NCBI RefSeq assembly: GCF_017312725.1
Contig: NZ_BOPO01000028.1
Coordinates: 1 to 64,000 of the forward strand
Source of the DNA: Actinocatenispora comari
GTDB taxonomy: Bacteria > Actinomycetota > Actinomycetes > Mycobacteriales > Micromonosporaceae
Direction of reading: 5' to 3'
Length of the DNA stretch: 64,000 nucleotides
Of the stretch, positions 1-46,668 are shown piece after piece. A program made the position numbers and the translations under genes. A model generated the notes under the pieces. The model had not been told where the DNA came from, ran no database searches, and was given only the letters and a program-made list of their open reading frames with translations. Numbering within the stretch: position 1 is the stretch's first letter; the number at the start of each line of letters is the position of its first letter.

Positions 1-1880
1 CGGCCGGCCTGGCCGGCCTGCTGGTACGGCCGGGCGCGCGACGGGCCGCCGCGGCGCTGGGCATCACGGCGACCGCGGTGGCGCTGGCCGCCGCGACGGT
101 GCTGCTCGCGACGACCCGGACGGTGGCGGCCGCCACCACGCTGGCCGACCTGGTCGGGGTCACGGTGCGGGTGGGCGTCTCGGTCGACCCGGTGGCCAGC
201 TCGGTGGCCGTCGCGGTCGGCGTGGTCGCGCTGCTGGTACAGATCTACTCGGTGGCCTACCTGCGCGGCGACGACCGGTACGGGCCGTACGCGGCGCAGG
301 TGAGCCTGTTCACCGCGGCGATGCTCGACGTGGTGGTCGCCGGCGACCTGGTGCAGTTGCTGGTCGGCTGGGAGGTCATGGGCATCTGCTCGTACCTGCT
401 GATCGGGCACGACCGCAGCCTGGCCACCGCGCCGGCGGCCGCGGTCAAGGCGTTCCTGGTCACCCGGGTCGGCGACGTCGGGTTCTGGATCGGGGTGATC
501 CTGCTCGGCACCGGCGCCGGCAGCTTCCGGATCGACGACGTGATCACCGCCGCGGCCACCGGCGAGCTGTCGCACGCCCGGGTCACCGCTGCGGTGCTGT
601 TGCTGCTCGCCGGCGTCGCCGGCAAGAGCGCGCAGTTCCCGCTGCACAGCTGGCTGCCGGACGCGATGGCCGGCCCGACCCCGATCTCGGCGCTGATCCA
701 CGCCGCGACGATGGTCGCCGCGGGCATCTACGTGGTGACCCGGCTGTACCCGCTGTTCGTCACGTCGAAGCCGGCGCTGGTGGTGCTGGGCCTGATGGCG
801 GCGGTGACGATGCTGCTCAGTGCGCTCGCCGCGACCGCCGCCGACGACCTCAAGCGGGTGCTCGCCTGGTCGACGGTCAGCCAGCTCGCGTACATGGCGG
901 GCGCGCTCGCGGTCGGCTCGGACCGCGCGGCGATCTTCCACCTGCTCACCCACGCCGCGTTCAAGGCGCTGCTGTTCCTCGCCGCCGGCTCGGTCATCCA
1001 CGCGGTCGGCAGCAACCTGATGAGCCGGATGGGCGGGCTGCGCCGCGGCATGCCGGTCACGTTCGTGACGATGACGATCGGGCTGGCGGCGCTGGCCGGG
1101 GTGCCGCCGTTCGCCGGCTTCTGGAGCAAGGACTCGATCCTGTCCGCCGCGCAGCAGACGACCAACGGCCTGGGCGCCGCGCCGGCGCTGAACGGCTGGC
1201 TGATCCTGGTGTGCGGGTTGGCCACCGTCGCGATCACCGCCTGGTACGTGACGAGGCTGTGGCTGCGGACGTTCTTCGGTGCCCGGCGCGGCCCGGCCGG
1301 GCACGAACCGGCCCGGACGATGTGGATTCCGCTGGTGCTGCTGGCGATCCCGGCGACGCTGCTCGGGCTGATCGAGCTGGTGCCCAGCCGCACCCCGCGG
1401 GCCGACTTCGGCTGGTTCGCCTACACGCCGAGGAAGTACGCCGAGTACCTGCCGTCCGGGGTGCCGGGCAGTCACCTGCTGCCGATCGGCCGGCAGGACC
1501 TCGACCCGGTGACCATGACCATCGGCCTGGTCCTGGTCGCGCTGGGGATCGTCACGGCGATCCTGGTGTGGCGCCGGGACACCGCCGCCGACCCGGCCCG
1601 GATACTGGGTCGGATGGCGCCGCTGCTGCGGTCCGGCTTCCGGTTCGACGACGCGCAGCGCGCGCTGGTGATCCGGCCGGTGCAGGCGCTGGCCACCACG
1701 GTGTGGCTGGGCGACGCCCGGGTGGTGGACGGCGCCGTCCGCGGGGTCGGGGCCGGCGCGGTCCGGCTCGGCCGGCGGCTGGCCCGGCTGCACACCGGCC
1801 TGCCCCGCTCGCTCGCCGCGGTGCTGGCCGGTGCGGTGCTGCTCGCCCTCGTCGCCGTGCTCGTCGGAGGTGCGCGATGA
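1..1880 (+). CDS. nuoL: NADH-quinone oxidoreductase subunit L (5' end cut by window)
   Basis: Large antiporter-like membrane subunit of respiratory complex I, which couples NADH-quinone electron transfer to proton pumping. The frame is open from base 3 with no start before the family's conserved part, so the true start lies upstream and only a short N-terminus is missing (about 626 codons present). The protein is almost wholly hydrophobic helices. Diagnostic segments are the TM5 glutamate in GWEVMGICSYLL, the lysine of AGKSAQFPLHSWLPDA followed by PTPISALIHAATMV, and GFWSKDS near the middle. The C-terminus holds the lateral helix and the last membrane helix. The stop overlaps an ATG (ATGA at 1877-1880) that opens a small ORF leading towards nuoM. 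Confidence 0.97.
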   Translation, partial: AGLAGLLVRPGARRAAAALGITATAVALAAATVLLATTRTVAAATTLADLVGVTVRVGVSVDPVASSVAVAVGVVALLVQIYSVAYLRGDDRYGPYAAQVSLFTAAMLDVVVAGDLVQLLVGWEVMGICSYLLIGHDRSLATAPAAAVKAFLVTRVGDVGFWIGVILLGTGAGSFRIDDVITAAATGELSHARVTAAVLLLLAGVAGKSAQFPLHSWLPDAMAGPTPISALIHAATMVAAGIYVVTRLYPLFVTSKPALVVLGLMAAVTMLLSALAATAADDLKRVLAWSTVSQLAYMAGALAVGSDRAAIFHLLTHAAFKALLFLAAGSVIHAVGSNLMSRMGGLRRGMPVTFVTMTIGLAALAGVPPFAGFWSKDSILSAAQQTTNGLGAAPALNGWLILVCGLATVAITAWYVTRLWLRTFFGARRGPAGHEPARTMWIPLVLLAIPATLLGLIELVPSRTPRADFGWFAYTPRKYAEYLPSGVPGSHLLPIGRQDLDPVTMTIGLVLVALGIVTAILVWRRDTAADPARILGRMAPLLRSGFRFDDAQRALVIRPVQALATTVWLGDARVVDGAVRGVGAGAVRLGRRLARLHTGLPRSLAAVLAGAVLLALVAVLVGGAR

Positions 1881-1939
1881 GGGGCGCCGCCGCGCGTCGT
1901 GCCTCGCGTCGTGCCTCGCTGGGGGAGGCGAACCGATGA
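1877..1939 (+). CDS. Possible 20-aa linker ORF between nuoL and nuoM
   Basis: A 20-codon ORF, rich in Arg, Ala and Ser (MRGAAARRASRRASLGEANR). It starts in the ATGA overlap with the nuoL stop and ends in another ATGA overlap with the next small ORF at 1936. It is encoded by the first unit of a 60-bp repeat. It is not a recognised protein. The two overlaps suggest that ribosomes finishing nuoL could re-initiate here, so the ORF may act as a translational relay rather than give a useful product. It could also be chance in a repeat derived from operon junctions. Confidence 0.35.
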   Translation: MRGAAARRASRRASLGEANR

Positions 1940-2068
1940 CCGGGTACCGCCGCGCGTCGTGTCGCGTCCGGGGCTGTGCCACGAGAGGCGAACCGGTGCG
2001 TGCGCGGCGCCGCGCGTCGTGCCTCCCCGGGGACGGCGAGCGGTGCCTCCCCGGGGACGGCGAGCGGT
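1890..2068 (+). repeat. 60-bp spaced repeats and a 24-bp tandem repeat in the nuoL-nuoM gap
   Basis: The word CCGCGCGTCGTG occurs at 1890, 1950 and 2010, exactly 60 bp apart, and GAGGCGAACCG at 1925 and 1985 with the same spacing. Within the third unit a 24-bp block beginning GCCTCCCCGGGG is repeated perfectly at 2021-2044 and 2045-2068. The gap between nuoL and nuoM is therefore a decayed minisatellite. In most actinobacteria I would expect these genes to be nearly adjacent. Confidence 0.85.
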
Positions 2069-2106
2069 GCCTCGTCGGGCTTCCGCGCGGAAGGGACGGC
2101 CGATGA
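1936..2106 (+). CDS. Possible 56-aa linker ORF between nuoL and nuoM
   Basis: A 56-codon ORF of Arg, Gly and Cys-rich sequence that includes a duplicated CLPGDGER segment from the 24-bp repeat. Its ATG overlaps the stop of the preceding 20-codon ORF (ATGA at 1936). Its TGA overlaps the nuoM start (ATGA at 2103-2106). It has no similarity I recognise. Together with the ORF before it, it makes an unbroken chain of 4-base overlaps from nuoL to nuoM, so its likely role, if any, is translational coupling. The six cysteines could be incidental to the repeat. Confidence 0.35.
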   Translation: MTGYRRASCRVRGCATRGEPVRARRRASCLPGDGERCLPGDGERCLVGLPRGRDGR

Positions 2107-3593
2107 GCGCTCTGCTGGTGGTGTTGTTGGCGGTGCCGGCGGTCGGTGCGGTGCTGGCCGCGTTGCTGCCGGACCGCGCCGGCCGGCTCGCCGGTACCGT
2201 CGCCGCGGCCGTCGCGTTCCTCGCCACGCTGCCGCTGGCCTGGCACTCGGCGCCGGTCGGCCACCACGCGATCGCGCCGTGGCACCAGCTCGACGTGGCC
2301 TGGGCGCCGGCCCTGGACATCCGGTTCCACCTCGGTGTGGACGGCATCTCCTGGCCGCTGGTGCTGCTGACCACGCTGCTGACGCTGCTGTGCTGCGGCT
2401 ACTCGCTCTGGCGGACGCCCGGCGCCGTGCCCGGCCGGTACCTGGTGGCGTTGCTGCTGGTGATCGAGGTCGGCATCGTCGGCGTGTTCGAGTCGCTGGA
2501 TCTGGTGCTGTTCTTCGTGTTCTTCGAGGTCGTCCTGCTCCCCATGTACGCGGTGATCGCCGGCTGGGGCGGCCCCGGGCGCCGGGCCGCGGCGACCAAG
2601 TTCGTGCTGTACACGCTGTTCGGGTCGGTGCTGCTGCTGGTCGGCGTGTTCGTGATCGTGGCGAGGACCGGGACCGCCGATCTGGTCACGCTGTCCGACC
2701 GGGGCGGCGCCGGGCTGTCCGCCGGCACCCAGCTGCTCGCGTTCGTGCTGCTGGCGGTGGCGTTCGCGGTGAAGAGCCCGCTGTGGCCGCTGCACACCTG
2801 GCTGCCGGACGCGCACACCGAGGCACCGACGGTCGGTTCGGTGATCCTGGCCGGCGTGCTGCTCAAGATGGGCACGTACGGGCTGCTGCGGGTGGCGGTC
2901 GGGGTGCTGCCGGACGGCGCCCGCGCCGCGTCCGGGGTGCTCGGCGTGCTGGCCACCGCGGCGATCCTGATCGGTGCGCTGGTCTGCCTGCGGCAGACCG
3001 AACTCAAGCGGCTCATCGCGTACTCCTCGGTCGGGCACATGGGGTTCGTGGTGCTCGGCATCGCGACCCTCACCGGCGTCGGATTCCAGGCCGCGCTGGT
3101 CGGCAACATCGCGCACGGGCTGCTGACCGGGCTGCTGTTCTTCCTGGCCGGCGCGATCAAGGACCGCACCGGTACCGGCGAGCTGGCCCGGCTCGGCGGG
3201 CTGCGCGAGGTGGCGCCGGGGCTCGCCGGCCTGCTCGGCTTCGCCGCGATCGGCTCGCTCGGCCTGCCCGGCCTGGCCGGCTTCTGGGGCGAGTTCTTCA
3301 CCGTGTACGCGGCGATCCGGCACGGCGGTCCACTGTGGATAGTGCTGGGGGTGTTCGCCGCGTTCGGTGGCGCCCTGGCCGCCGCGTACTTCCTGCGGCT
3401 GCTGCGGCGCGTCGCGCACGGCCCGGCGGCGCCGGCGATCGCCGCGCTGCGGCCCCGCGCGCTGGCCCGGCCGGAACTCGCCGCCTGGTCCCCGCTGGTA
3501 CTGCTGGCGCTCGCGGTCGGGGTGGCCCCGGCGCTGGTGCTCGCGCTGTCCGCCCCGCCGGTCCGCGCCCTGATCGAGGTGATGGGCCGATGA
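2103..3593 (+). CDS. nuoM: NADH-quinone oxidoreductase subunit M
   Basis: Antiporter-like proton-pumping subunit of complex I, 496 residues. The ATG at 2103 gives the usual hydrophobic N-terminus (MSALLVVLLAVPAVGA); longer readings run into the upstream repeat. Family landmarks are the glutamate in LFFVFFEVVLLPMYAVI, the lysine in AVKSPLWPLHTWLPDAHTEAPT, a second lysine in GVLLKMGTYGLLR, and the glutamate of GFWGEFFTVYAA near the C-terminus. It lies between nuoL and nuoN as in standard nuo operons. The final codons and stop (3572-3594) are the source of the 42-bp repeats that follow. Confidence 0.97.
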   Translation: MSALLVVLLAVPAVGAVLAALLPDRAGRLAGTVAAAVAFLATLPLAWHSAPVGHHAIAPWHQLDVAWAPALDIRFHLGVDGISWPLVLLTTLLTLLCCGYSLWRTPGAVPGRYLVALLLVIEVGIVGVFESLDLVLFFVFFEVVLLPMYAVIAGWGGPGRRAAATKFVLYTLFGSVLLLVGVFVIVARTGTADLVTLSDRGGAGLSAGTQLLAFVLLAVAFAVKSPLWPLHTWLPDAHTEAPTVGSVILAGVLLKMGTYGLLRVAVGVLPDGARAASGVLGVLATAAILIGALVCLRQTELKRLIAYSSVGHMGFVVLGIATLTGVGFQAALVGNIAHGLLTGLLFFLAGAIKDRTGTGELARLGGLREVAPGLAGLLGFAAIGSLGLPGLAGFWGEFFTVYAAIRHGGPLWIVLGVFAAFGGALAAAYFLRLLRRVAHGPAAPAIAALRPRALARPELAAWSPLVLLALAVGVAPALVLALSAPPVRALIEVMGR

Positions 3594-3720
3594 GTCCCTC
3601 CCGTCCGGGCCCCGATCGCGGTGATCGGCCGATGAGCGCCGCCGGTCCGGGCCCCGATCGGGGTGATGGGCCGATGAGTCCCGCCGGTCCGGGTCCCGAT
3701 CGAGGTGACGGGCCGATGAG
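3572..3720 (+). repeat. 42-bp tandem repeat made from the nuoM 3' end
   Basis: The last codons of nuoM, its stop and the overlapping ATGAG recur at an exact 42-bp period: ATGAG lies at 3590, 3632, 3674 and 3716. Each unit reads roughly GATCGAGGTGATGGGCCGATGAG plus a GC-rich spacer with GGTCCGGG. The first unit is the authentic nuoM end; the others are diverged copies. Because 42 is a multiple of three, all four ATGs share one frame. Confidence 0.9.
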
Positions 3721-3862
3721 CTGCGCCACCACCCGCTCCGGCCCGCCCGTGCCCCGGCGCGCGGGCGTCCGCGCGGTGCCGGCCGGTGGTCGGGCGCGCC
3801 CGAGCCGTCGGCGCCGGGCCTCGCTGCCCGGCGGCGTTCCGGCGAGGGGGGAGCGCTCGTGA
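3590..3862 (+). CDS. Possible 90-aa repeat-encoded linker ORF between nuoM and nuoN
   Basis: A 90-codon ORF whose ATG overlaps the nuoM stop (ATGA at 3590-3593) and whose TGA overlaps the nuoN start (GTGA at 3859-3862). The first half is three 14-residue repeats of the type PMSPAGPGPDRGDG; the second half is basic and proline-rich. It resembles no protein known to me. Its ends suggest translational coupling of nuoM to nuoN through an expanded junction. The extra in-frame ATGs in each repeat could serve as alternative entry points. Evidence for a functional peptide is weak. Confidence 0.4.
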   Translation: MSPSRPGPDRGDRPMSAAGPGPDRGDGPMSPAGPGPDRGDGPMSCATTRSGPPVPRRAGVRAVPAGGRARPSRRRRASLPGGVPARGERS

Positions 3863-5403
3863 GCCTCGTGCAGTCGATCGATCAGGTGGCGCTCGCGCCG
3901 GCCTACCTGGCCGCGCTGACCGCGGTGGCGGTGCTGGTCGTCGACCTGATCGTGCCGGGCCGGCGGGTGCCGGCGCTGGTCGCCGCCGCGCTCGGGACCA
4001 CCGCGACCGGCGTCGTCGCCGTACTGGTCGGGCTCGGCCCGGCGCGCGCCACGTTCTGCACCGCCGGCGGCACCCTGCCTGGCGGCGTGCCCGTCGACCG
4101 GTCCTGCTCGTACGTCGCGGACCACGTCGGCGCGCTCGTCGCGGTGGCGTTCTGCGCGGTCACCCTGGTCGTGCTGGCGCTGTCCACGCCGGTGCTCGCG
4201 GCCCGGGTGGCGCCGACCGGCGAGTACCTGTTCCTGCTGGCCGCGTCGCTGACCGGCGGCGTCGTGCTCGGCTACGCCCGCGACCTGATCACGCTGATCA
4301 TCGCGGTCGAGACGCTCACCCTCCCGCTCTACGTCCTGATCGGCCTGCGTCGCCGCGCGTCCCGCGCCACCGGGCCCGACGAGCCCGGCGCGCCGGCGGA
4401 GGCGGCGTCGGGCGCGTTGACGTTCTTCGTGATCTCGGTGGTGTCGACCACCGTCACGCTGCTCGGCGCCGCGCTGCTCTACGCGCTGACCGGCGCGGTG
4501 CACCTGGACCGGATCGCCGCGGCGCTGGCGCACCGGGACGACCTGCACGGCGTACCGCTGACCTCGGCCGCGGTGCTGCTGGTGCTGGTGGGGCTGGCGT
4601 TCAAGCTTGCCGCGGTGCCGTTCCACGGGTGGGCGCCGGTGAGCTACGACGGCGCGCCGCTGCCGGTGACCGCGTACCTGTCGACCGCGTCCAAGCTCGG
4701 CGGCGTCGTCGCCCTGCTGTACGTGACGGTGTTCGCGCTCGGCCCGTGGTTGTCGGTGGTCGGCCCGCTGCTCGCGGTGCTGGCGGTGGCGAGCATGACG
4801 GTCGGCAACCTCGCCGCGCTGCGGCAGCGCCGGATGGTGCGGCTGCTCGCGTTCTCGTCGGTGGCGCAGGCCGGCTACCTGCTGGCACCGCTCGGCGCGT
4901 TCGCCGCGGCGGCCGGTCGCTCCGGCGCGGCCCGGCACACGCTGACCGCGGCCACCCTCGGGTACACGATCTTCTACCTGCTGCTGGAGCTGGGCGCGTT
5001 CGGTGCGTTGATCGCGCTGCGCGGCGCCGGGTCGGGTGGCGAGATCGACGAGTACCGGGGTGCCGGGCGGGTGCGGCCGCTGACCGCCGCGGCGCTGGCG
5101 TTCGCGCTGATCGGGCTCGCCGGGCTGCCGCCGAGCCTGGCCGGCCTGTTCGCCAAGATCACCGTGGTCCGGGCGGCGCTGACCGGCGGTACCGCCTGGC
5201 TGGCCGTGCTGATCGCGCTGAACGCGGTGCTCGGCCTGGTCTACTACCTGCGCGTCGTGGTCGTCCTGTACCGCCCCGGCGAGTACCGGCCGGTCCCGGT
5301 CCGGCCGTTGCTGGCCGGCGTGCTCGCCCTGGTCACCGCCGCCGCCGTGGTCGCCGGATTCGCCCCGCAGCTGGTCCTGGACGCCGCCGCGCTGCTGCCC
5401 TGA
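3859..5403 (+). CDS. nuoN: NADH-quinone oxidoreductase subunit N
   Basis: Third antiporter-like proton-pumping subunit of complex I, 514 residues. The GTG start follows GAGGGGGGAGCG, a good ribosome binding site, and overlaps the upstream linker ORF. Landmarks are the glutamate of AVETLTLPLYVLIGL, the lysine in FKLAAVPFHGWAPVSYDGAPLPVTAYLSTASKLG, and a lysine in PPSLAGLFAKITVV. It is the last gene of the nuo operon. No T-rich terminator is obvious before htpX. Confidence 0.97.
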   Translation: MSLVQSIDQVALAPAYLAALTAVAVLVVDLIVPGRRVPALVAAALGTTATGVVAVLVGLGPARATFCTAGGTLPGGVPVDRSCSYVADHVGALVAVAFCAVTLVVLALSTPVLAARVAPTGEYLFLLAASLTGGVVLGYARDLITLIIAVETLTLPLYVLIGLRRRASRATGPDEPGAPAEAASGALTFFVISVVSTTVTLLGAALLYALTGAVHLDRIAAALAHRDDLHGVPLTSAAVLLVLVGLAFKLAAVPFHGWAPVSYDGAPLPVTAYLSTASKLGGVVALLYVTVFALGPWLSVVGPLLAVLAVASMTVGNLAALRQRRMVRLLAFSSVAQAGYLLAPLGAFAAAAGRSGAARHTLTAATLGYTIFYLLLELGAFGALIALRGAGSGGEIDEYRGAGRVRPLTAAALAFALIGLAGLPPSLAGLFAKITVVRAALTGGTAWLAVLIALNAVLGLVYYLRVVVVLYRPGEYRPVPVRPLLAGVLALVTAAAVVAGFAPQLVLDAAALLP

Positions 5404-28976: not shown

Positions 28977-30308
28977 GTGTCGGTGACCAGGGTTTCGGAC
29001 GTGCTGCGGCGCCGGTTGCTCGGCGTCGGGTTCATCGTGCTCGTCGCCGCGCTGCTGGCCGCGGCGGTCGGCGCGTACCAGAAGGTGTTCACCCCGGCGG
29101 TGTGGGTGACGGTGACGGCCGACCACACCGGGCTGCAGGTGGACCGGAACGCCGACGTGAAGCTGCGCGGCGTCGTCGTCGGCCAGGTCCGCGACATCTC
29201 CGCGAACGGCGAACGGGCGAAGCTGCGGCTGGCGCTCGACCCCGGCTCGGTACCGCGGATCCCGTCGAACGTGACCGCCACGATGCTGCCCAAGACGCTG
29301 TTCGGCGAGAAGTACGTGTCGCTGGACGCGCCGGCGCGCCCGTCGGCCCGGGCGATCACCGCCGGTACGGTCGTGCACCAGGACCGGTCGGCGCAGGCGG
29401 TCGAGCTGGAGCGGGTGCTGGATCGCGCGTTGCCGCTGCTCAAGGCGGTACCGCCGGAGAAGGTCTCGGCCACGCTGACGGCGCTGGCGGCGGCGCTGCG
29501 CGGGCGCGGCGACCAGCTCGGCGACACGCTGGTCACGCTGGACCGGTACCTGAAGACGTTGAACGCGAACATGCCGACGATCCAGTCGGACATCCGCAAG
29601 CTGTCCGACGTGCTCGACACCTACACCGGCGCGCTGCCGGACCTGATGGCGATCCTGCGCAACCTGACGGTCACCTCGTCGACCGTGGCCGAGCAGCGCC
29701 AGCAGCTGGCGGACTTCTGGGCCGACACGACCGGGCTGGCCGACACCGCGACGCCGTTCCTGCAGCGGCACGAGGGCCGGCTGATCCAGCTCGGCCAGGT
29801 CAGTCGGCCGCTGCTGGACGTGCTCGCCGAGTACTCGCCGGAGTACCCGTGCCTGACCGCCGGCGCGGTGAAGCTGCAGAAGAACATCGAGGGGGCGTTC
29901 GACACCGGCCGCCTGCACATCACGCTGGAGATCACCAAGGACTCGGGCAAGTACATCGCCGGCGACGAACCGGCGAACCTGTCGGACACCGGGCCCAACT
30001 GCCGCGGCCTGCCGAACCCGGCGGTGCCGTACCCGGGTGGCACCGTCGCCGACGGCTACCAGCACGGCGCGTCGCACCCCGGCGGCGTGCTCACCGGCGG
30101 CGGCGACCCGGGTACCAGCGGCCTCGGTCTCGGCGGCATCGGTGGCGGCAGCGGCGTGGACATGGGCTACGCCGGTACGAGCGCGGAGCAGTCGGTGGTC
30201 AACCCGCTGGTCGCGGCGGCCACCGGTCGCAACGTCACCGACCTGGGCGGCATCGACGACCTGCTCTGGGGCCCACTGCTGCGTGGATCGGTGGTGAGTG
30301 TGAAGTGA
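28977..30308 (+). CDS. mceA: MCE family protein, first of six (MceA-type)
   Basis: Protein of 443 residues, one of six that assemble the periplasmic lipid-binding tube. One N-terminal membrane anchor (VGFIVLVAALLAAAVGAYQKVF), then the MCE domain (VTVTADHTGLQVDRNADVKLRGVVVGQVRDI, LPKTLFGEKYVSLDAP), a long helical section, and a Gly-rich tail (GGIGGGSGVDMGYAGTSAEQ). The presence of SGVDMGYAGT-type glycine tail and its order after the permeases fit MceA. GTG start. Confidence 0.9.
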   Translation: MSVTRVSDVLRRRLLGVGFIVLVAALLAAAVGAYQKVFTPAVWVTVTADHTGLQVDRNADVKLRGVVVGQVRDISANGERAKLRLALDPGSVPRIPSNVTATMLPKTLFGEKYVSLDAPARPSARAITAGTVVHQDRSAQAVELERVLDRALPLLKAVPPEKVSATLTALAAALRGRGDQLGDTLVTLDRYLKTLNANMPTIQSDIRKLSDVLDTYTGALPDLMAILRNLTVTSSTVAEQRQQLADFWADTTGLADTATPFLQRHEGRLIQLGQVSRPLLDVLAEYSPEYPCLTAGAVKLQKNIEGAFDTGRLHITLEITKDSGKYIAGDEPANLSDTGPNCRGLPNPAVPYPGGTVADGYQHGASHPGGVLTGGGDPGTSGLGLGGIGGGSGVDMGYAGTSAEQSVVNPLVAAATGRNVTDLGGIDDLLWGPLLRGSVVSVK

Positions 30309-30384
30309 GCGAGCGTCCGCGAGCGAACCATGGGCATGGCGCGACGTGGTGCCTCGTGAGTGTTCCGACGAAGGAGGAACGCTC

Positions 30385-31449
30385 ATGAGTGGTCGGAGCA
30401 GCAGCCGGAGCGTGGCGCCGGCGCTGATCAAGCTGATCGTGTTCGCCGTGGTCACGGTGCTGCTGACCGGGGTGCTGGCGACGACGCTCGGTTCGCTGGG
30501 CTGGTTCGGCGGCACCCGGTACAAGGCGCAGTTCACCGACGTGACCGGCCTGCTCAAGGGCGACGACGTGCGCATCGCCGGCGTCAAGGTGGGCCAGGTC
30601 AAGGACATCTCGCTGGTGCACGGCAAGACCGCGCAGGTGTCGTTCACCGTCGACGACACGGTGACGATGCCGAAGTCGGTACGGGCGAAGATCCGGTACC
30701 GCAACCTGATCGGCCAGCGCTACGTCGAGCTCACCGAGGGCACCGGCGACACCGCGAAGCTGCCGGCCGGCAGCACCATCCCGCTGTCGCACACCGCACC
30801 GGCGCTCGACCTGACCGCGCTGTTCAACGGCTTCCAGCCGCTGTTCGCCGGGCTGTCGCCGAAGGACGTCAACAAGTTCGCGTACGAGATCATCCAGGTG
30901 CTGCAGGGCGAGGGCGGCACCGTGAACGACCTGCTGGCCCGCACCGCGTCGCTGACCAACACGCTGGCCGACCGGGACAAGGTGATCGGCCAGGTGATCG
31001 ACAACCTGAACAAGGTGCTCGCGACGCTGAACGCGCGGGACGACAAGCTGTCCGACATCATCTCGTCGTTGCAGGACTTCGTCTCCGGGCTGTCCGCGGA
31101 CCGCAAGAACATCGGCGACTCGATCCAGAACCTGGGCGACCTCGCCGGTACCACCGCGGATCTGGTCAAGGACGGTCGGCCGGCGCTGAAGGACGACATC
31201 AAGCAGCTGCGTTCGCTCGCGACCAACCTCAACGCCAACACCGGCGTGATCGAGGGGACGCTGGCCCGGCTGCCGGTGCGCACCGCGGCGCTGACCCGGA
31301 CCGCGTCGTACGGGTCCTGGTTCAACTTCTACATGTGCAACTTCGACGGCACCGTGAACGTGCCGGGCATCGGCAACGTGAACCCGGCGACGGTGTCGGC
31401 GACCGCGGCCCGCTGCACCTCGCCCGGATCGAGCGGGGGTGGCAAGTGA
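30385..31449 (+). CDS. mceB: MCE family protein, second (MceB-type)
   Basis: Protein of 354 residues: anchor helix (LIVFAVVTVLLTGVLATTLG), MCE domain (AQFTDVTGLLKGDDVRIAGVKVGQVKDISL, IGQRYVELTEGTG), then helical repeats rich in NLNKVLATLN. The C-terminal NFYMCNFDGTVNVPGIG with two Cys (CNF and ARCTSPG) is typical of MceB. The ATG at 30385 follows AAGGAGGAAC, the best ribosome binding site of the cluster. Its stop overlaps the next GTG. Confidence 0.92.
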   Translation: MSGRSSSRSVAPALIKLIVFAVVTVLLTGVLATTLGSLGWFGGTRYKAQFTDVTGLLKGDDVRIAGVKVGQVKDISLVHGKTAQVSFTVDDTVTMPKSVRAKIRYRNLIGQRYVELTEGTGDTAKLPAGSTIPLSHTAPALDLTALFNGFQPLFAGLSPKDVNKFAYEIIQVLQGEGGTVNDLLARTASLTNTLADRDKVIGQVIDNLNKVLATLNARDDKLSDIISSLQDFVSGLSADRKNIGDSIQNLGDLAGTTADLVKDGRPALKDDIKQLRSLATNLNANTGVIEGTLARLPVRTAALTRTASYGSWFNFYMCNFDGTVNVPGIGNVNPATVSATAARCTSPGSSGGGK

Positions 31450-46419: not shown

Positions 46420-46464
46420 GCCGTTTCCGCCGGCATCCGGCCCCGGCTCGGCTGACCTCGGCTC

Positions 46465-46548
46465 GGCTCGGCTCTGCCTCGGCTCGGCGGGCCTCGGCCG
46501 GGCCCTGGCTCGGCACTGCCTCGGCTCGGCCGGCCTCGGCCTGGCCCG
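46465..46548 (+). repeat. 42-bp CTCGG-rich tandem repeat
   Basis: Two adjacent 42-bp units begin GGCTCGGCTCTGCCTCGG (46465) and GGCTCGGCACTGCCTCGG (46507) and differ at only a few positions. Both are themselves made of the pentamer CTCGG, which also flanks them. Confidence 0.8.
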
Positions 46549-46668
46549 GCTCGGCTGGCCGCGGCTCGGCCCGCGCCGGTTGCTGGGAGCCGCTCAGGTT
46601 CGCCGGGTAGCGTTGGGCGACACGGGTGCGGCCGGATTCACCCCGGCCGATCAGACAGGGGGCTTCGG

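Follow-up and report, generated by a model that had tools for sequence, protein, structure and literature searches.

Small open reading frames, probably of dispersed, coupling-type repeats, at stop/start overlaps in the nuo operon of Actinocatenispora comari and its relatives

The window, a 64,000-nucleotide stretch of Actinocatenispora comari DNA, begins within nuoL and continues through nuoM and nuoN, with three small ORFs placed such that each reading frame, in the order nuoL, ORF 1, ORF 2, nuoM, ORF 3, nuoN, is linked to the next by an ATGA or GTGA overlap without interruption (Table 1). The original prediction had described this chain as running through ORFs of 20, 56 and 90 codons; its coordinates are exact and the codon counts were reproduced on recomputation. 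nuoL and nuoM were named from profile matches above cut-off (TIGR01974, 491 bits, and TIGR01972, 462.4 bits, respectively), and the best match of nuoN is to TIGR01770 (273.5 bits, below the cut-off of 332.6). Shine-Dalgarno pairing is strong at all five DTGA sites of the chain (-11.6 to -13.2 kcal/mol), and among the 428 DTGA sites found elsewhere on the plus strand of the window just 1.4-2.8% reach such a strength. The gap between nuoL and nuoM (L/M) contains tandem units of 12 bp and 24 bp as identified by TRF, and the gap between nuoM and nuoN (M/N) contains a 42-bp array that begins within nuoM. Read in the nuoM frame, every 42-bp unit repeats the nuoM C-terminus and its stop, so that each copy brings its own ATGA, and because 42 is a multiple of three small ORF 3 is kept open. 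Elsewhere in the window, at 46444-46579, lies a G+C-rich array for which units of 5, 11, 15 and 42 bp were reported.

Table 1. Coordinates of the nuo chain and of dispersed-element matches in the window. R1 is the covariance model of the element described in the text; its E-values are rough.
Feature	Position	Strand	Remarks
nuoL, 5' end beyond the window	1..1880	+	stop TGA 1878-1880 within ATGA 1877-1880
Small ORF 1, 20 codons, ATGA to ATGA	1877..1939	+	second ATGA at 1936-1939
Small ORF 2, 56 codons, ATGA to nuoM ATGA	1936..2106	+	ends in ATGA 2103-2106
Degenerate element 3' part: hairpin, Shine-Dalgarno, nuoM start codon	2053..2108	+	R1, 28.1 bits, E 8.4e-6
nuoM	2103..3593	+	starts at ATGA 2103-2106, ends within ATGA 3590-3593
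42-bp tandem repeat, four copies, duplicated from nuoM 3' end	3554..3720	+	TRF and reading of the sequence
Small ORF 3, 90 codons, ATGA to nuoN GTGA	3590..3862	+	GTGA 3859-3862 is the nuoN start
Probable degenerate element 3' part: Shine-Dalgarno, nuoN start codon	3801..3864	+	R1, 15.5 bits, E 0.017, weak
nuoN	3859..5403	+	profile match and overlap coordinates
Full-length copy of the element between two MCE-family genes, its 27-codon ORF linked to them by GTGA and ATGA	30305..30388	+	R1, 94.5 bits (match 30300-30390)

When the inserts are dinucleotide-shuffled and the frame is left to chance, a complete chain is expected with P ~0.07 for the L/M gap and ~0.18 for the M/N gap of the window, and the chain in the window alone is thus only moderately beyond chance. 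Such a chain might be a by-product of base composition, with the overlaps arising as duplicated ATGA: with a G+C content of 70-80%, few stop codons occur and chance alone would leave long stretches open between overlaps. Same-length shuffles of single inserts do often remain in chain (0.20 and 0.55 for the two window inserts, up to 1.00 for short inserts). However, a chain also needs the frame to be right, and every start of the window chain carries a strong Shine-Dalgarno sequence.

A search of contigs with nuoM as query returned no near relatives (best identity 66%), while a genome-level search gave near ones, namely three other species of the genus with nuoM identities of 97, 93 and 85% (the last for the best piece). 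At L/M, two of these three species have a direct GTGA overlap without insert and the third has a 24-codon ORF, giving two direct and two filled junctions over the four species including that of the window. At M/N, all three carry inserts in chain, of 36 codons, of 55 codons (G003) and of 29 + 26 codons, which are unlike the window's insert in both sequence and length. The comparison was extended to other genera of the family through 27 nuo loci, those obtained for the best matches among 121 genomes; nuoM and nuoN starts were not fixed in them, and an in-frame DTG anywhere in the open stretch was counted. At L/M, 18 of these loci have a direct overlap and seven a chain, one is without DTGA (L058) and one is without a nuoL match (L042); at M/N, 16 are direct, eight are in chain, two have TGATG and one is out of chain. 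The nuo inserts are of unrelated kinds, comprising element-like DNA (see below), a ~60-bp type, a palindromic repeat and unclassified DNA, and those of other genera stay in chain over a range of 10-297 codons. The longest frame belongs to an 886-bp repeat-rich M/N insert (L063), whose 297 codons end exactly at the nuoN ATGA. The ~60-bp type, a second coupling-type repeat starting GTGAGCGCGAGGAG (e.g. L064:1433-1498, also at other family loci), matches 22 of the 46 family genomes but neither of the two genus genomes searched. The palindromic repeat, CTTTGCTCTG ... CAGAGCAAAG, lies within a small ORF at L040:2547-2615 and leaves its frame unbroken, and an inverted repeat similar to it is found in the L/M insert of L060. 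The palindromic repeat is matched at 63 places in a single genus genome and nowhere in the other three, and the G003 M/N ORF, which contains a palindromic repeat, is still in chain.

Among insert-bearing nuo junctions with DTGA at the upstream stop, 21 of 22 (6 within the genus, 16 outside) are in chain, against a chance expectation of ~4.4 obtained by summing per-junction values for frame and openness together. The single junction scored as out of chain (L048 M/N) has a 1-base overlap, TGATG, at its end. All six genus junctions are in chain, falling to 1.6 or 1.2 after a 1- or 2-base deletion, respectively, and 15 of the 16 outside the genus, falling to 0.8 or 0.9. Same-length shuffles retain the chain in 2.9 of the six genus junctions and in 11.8 of the 16 outside-genus junctions, so that the signal in the latter lies mainly in insert length rather than openness. 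Once these related genomes are added, the chain goes far beyond what chance would give, which could not be said from the window alone. The empty sites, the varied length and origin of the inserts and the excess of in-chain junctions support the idea, already put forward in the original prediction, of selection keeping stop/start coupling while junction length changes, and from these comparisons we consider such selection well supported. Base composition, whose expectation these junctions exceed, is disfavoured as an explanation, and we regard it as very improbable.

Another explanation is that the peptides themselves have a function, such as that of complex I accessory peptides, in keeping with the open frames and good start sites of the small ORFs. 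At these nuo junctions, however, some relatives have no peptide at all and the peptides of the others are unrelated, and a Pfam/NCBIfam scan of four small-ORF peptides returned no match, a result of little power at lengths of 20 to 90 residues. This is the least probable of the explanations that we weighed, and we give it hardly any credence.

Using the M/N copy of one species as query, a dispersed element was found in all four genus genomes, with at least 132 matches (42, 14, 35 and 41, three of these counts being lower bounds). From 90 loci we compiled 81 distinct sites, some of the 132 matches, mainly the weakest, being left out. As read by eye, the element consensus consists of ATGA, ~26 codons and then GTGCCTCATCGGCGTTCCGACGAAGGAGGAACGCCGATGAGC, such that its 3' end is the Shine-Dalgarno sequence and start codon of the following gene and the ORF within it has 24-27 codons. 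Its last ATG/GTG is the start of a gene-like ORF in the same direction at 75 of the 81 sites. The element is mostly 77 or 80 bp long (63 of 68 measurable copies, after setting aside seven of 75 sites at which no 5' end could be recognised), and the length from first to last DTGA is 71, 74, 77 or 80 bp, i.e. 2 mod 3, in 65 of the 68, all 65 of which are open; the three off-length copies measure 70, 76 and 76 bp. A search of Rfam at gathering thresholds with five loci gave no family for the element, and in the window gave four tRNAs only.

Six of the 81 sites lack a clear downstream gene and 12 lack a same-direction upstream gene; their exclusion leaves 63 sites flanked by genes on both sides, 45 of which have DTGA at the upstream gene's stop. 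Of the 18 that do not, four have TGATG with a 1-base overlap; together with the 12 sites without an upstream gene, this indicates that the element also occurs in arrangements other than coupling to an upstream gene. Complete chains are present at 42 of the 45 DTGA sites (41 of 44 if one locus with an N run in the junction is dropped), compared with 10.4 when one base is deleted, 12.8 when two are and 18.8 under same-length shuffling. The deletion controls speak against base composition here as well. The element copies are of common descent, and the counts are therefore not independent. Among the three DTGA sites that fail to form a chain, one has an intact ortholog. Tandem copies occur, with two to five links in 18 of the 42 complete junctions. 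An array at L151:1083-1618 has seven element matches, mostly with a 78-bp period, and since 78 is a multiple of three its units are fused in frame rather than forming separate small ORFs.

The original prediction had ascribed the window's gaps to two different tandem repeats. The repeats are indeed present, and to them must be added the genome-wide element, matches to which end both gaps, that in M/N being weak. The model matches suggest that a worn element copy supplies the start-codon region at the end of each nuo gap, with local repeats making up the remainder, and most of each gap lies outside the element consensus. Small ORF 1 is possibly another degenerate copy, given a weak model match over 1872-1941 (9.3 bits, E 0.7). 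The full-length copy lies farther downstream between two MCE-family genes. This MCE junction has a direct overlap in one of the four species and in-chain inserts in three, the relatives having a direct overlap, two tandem copies or, in G003, an unrelated 16-codon insert. An ABC-transporter junction is in chain from DTGA in three of the four species; in the fourth, a 12-codon ORF starts 3 bases past the stop and ends at the next gene's ATGA. The empty sites observed are direct GTGA overlaps, and the pattern of empty and filled sites would fit insertion, with loss as the alternative.

The last 33 bases of the element, up to and including the start codon, fold into a 12-bp hairpin whose stem takes in that codon and the GG end of the Shine-Dalgarno sequence, with AAGGA of the latter in the loop. 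RNAalifold recovered this hairpin unprompted (10 pairs). Across 71 sequences, 91.0% of cells are paired against 81.6% in shuffled controls (0 of 500 shuffles as high), changes on both sides of a pair occur in 67 cells against 17.5 (0/500), the covariation score is 0.310 against 0.150 (0/500; slid controls at most 0.069) and further pair types number 22 against 16.8 (1/500), with the reservation that the copies share descent and the events are not independent. The number of pairs with a both-side change, six against 5.5 in shuffles, is not in excess (242/500). G-U outnumbers A-C by 60 to 11 among the 828 hairpin cells, which points to the coding-strand RNA, the fixed start codon accounting for part of the difference. 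In the window, the hairpin is intact at 30354-30388 (fold z -5.55) and weaker in the L/M gap (z -1.31), and the fold is no better than shuffles in the M/N gap (z +0.56) or in the M/N copy of G002 (z +0.11). As the hairpins of the nuo gaps are degenerate, the idea of hairpin gating rests on the element family and not on those gaps.

An element built with a length of 2 mod 3 and an open frame would place fresh insertions in chain by design, and the frames might then reflect nothing but selfish camouflage, without continuing selection at each junction. The uniform length and mostly open frames of the copies are as this explanation would have them. Inserts other than the element are in chain too, however, including the nuoM-derived 42-bp array, the palindromic repeat of the G003 M/N junction, the 16-codon ORF of the G003 MCE junction and the inserts of widely differing length in other genera. 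Of 16 orthologous site groups, seven have members of differing lengths, all in chain (one of the seven includes the N-run locus), one has a member with the frame lost, and in the remainder the lengths are equal or DTGA is missing in some member. The frame-breaking indels that, according to the original prediction, should be sought in relatives were thus looked for with an outcome that mostly favours coupling, the one orthologous site that has lost its frame being the counter-example. Camouflage alone therefore seems unlikely to us, if somewhat less so than the two explanations considered above, and we favour selection for coupling.

Beyond the genus, R1 matches were found in 36 of 61 family genomes, representing 25 of 44 genera, and in 24 of 197 genomes of the class, spread over eight families, where some consist of a single weak match; one of the 14 listed genomes of family f2 of the same order has matches. 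The three genus genomes drawn in this survey, in which scoring extended to at most 72 candidates per genome, gave at least 70 (the present genome), at least 66 and at least 24 matches. A script found an ORF of 26-27 codons ending in the downstream ORF's DTGA at 16 of 18 outside-genus loci (10 from the family and 8 from the class survey), and the other two, inspected by eye, have their terminal DTGA displaced from the end of the model.

The arrangement recalls the MIRUs of mycobacteria, which Supply et al. in 1997 reportedly found inserted in operon stop/start overlaps, using the term DTGA; the present element occupies this position at 45 of 63 sites and not at 18. Small repeats of the REP/MITE type are likewise short, dispersed and hairpin-bearing, and differ from the element, whose location and frame are linked to start codons. 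The passages on coupling in PMC12548453, which cite Supply et al. 1997, describe MIRUs as apparently mobile, inserting at start codons and having an ORF coupled with a -4 spacing, and the dispersed element is likewise short and placed at start codons with an ORF at the same spacing. The mechanism, which the original prediction took to be undescribed, had in that account already been set out for MIRUs, and the principle is consequently known. In the part of PMC2453075 concerned with senX3-regX3, MIRU units of 77 and 53 bp stand in tandem; both lengths are 2 mod 3, and the commonest length of the element is likewise 77 bp. Copy numbers of the 77 bp repeat are given in a section of PMC9392950. 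Tandem units of length 2 mod 3 are common to both systems, but one array of the element, with its 78-bp period, is fused. Differences are that the element occurs in genomes apparently, from their kinship labels, outside the genus for which MIRUs are named, that several unrelated insert types share the same junctions here and that the element has a covarying hairpin at the downstream start, of which the MIRU descriptions, in the passages cited, make no mention. Coupling via hairpins that hide a downstream start at an NTGA (-4) overlap is itself described, in the same passages of PMC12548453, for example for phage f1 genes VII/IX, where ribosomes from upstream open the structure, as is proposed for the element; there it concerns one gene pair, whereas here a dispersed element brings the hairpin to many. 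Searches of an open-access library yielded no description of this element, nor of MIRU-like elements outside mycobacteria. By description rather than by sequence similarity, the element may be likened to a MIRU in how it works, and what appears to be new is an element family outside the MIRU description, apparently spread through the class, with a strongly covarying hairpin predicted to pair the start codon and part of the Shine-Dalgarno sequence.

We propose that short dispersed coupling elements, together with local duplications, inserted at DTGA overlaps and that the small ORFs are their coding part. The element's first DTGA would overlap the upstream stop, its ORF of 24-27 codons would span it, and its 3' hairpin would hold an AAGGAGG-type Shine-Dalgarno sequence and the DTGA whose DTG serves as the start of the next gene. 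Ribosomes finishing the upstream gene would re-initiate on the small ORF, melt the hairpin, stop at the last TGA and then start the following gene. An insert of 2 mod 3 length with an open frame would make insertion nearly harmless, and frame-breaking insertions would uncouple the operon and be removed. Translation, re-initiation and gating by the hairpin, as well as the mode in which the element moves, are what we infer from sequence, and we consider the coupling-element explanation as a whole to be probable. A bolder version would posit a mobile cassette family, ancient and found across the class, with a hairpin that shuts the next start and so makes the downstream gene strictly dependent on translation of the small ORF, and junctions repeatedly rebuilt by different repeats while selection keeps the ribosome path; on this our judgement is evenly balanced.

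If the proposal holds, a phenomenon named after mycobacteria would be found more widely, and the RNA structure would hint at the way in which gating works. It would also provide a testable rule, that only DNA which preserves stop/start coupling may be added to junctions of coupled genes, and the many natural insertions, together with some empty sites, would amount to a natural experiment on the importance of translational coupling.
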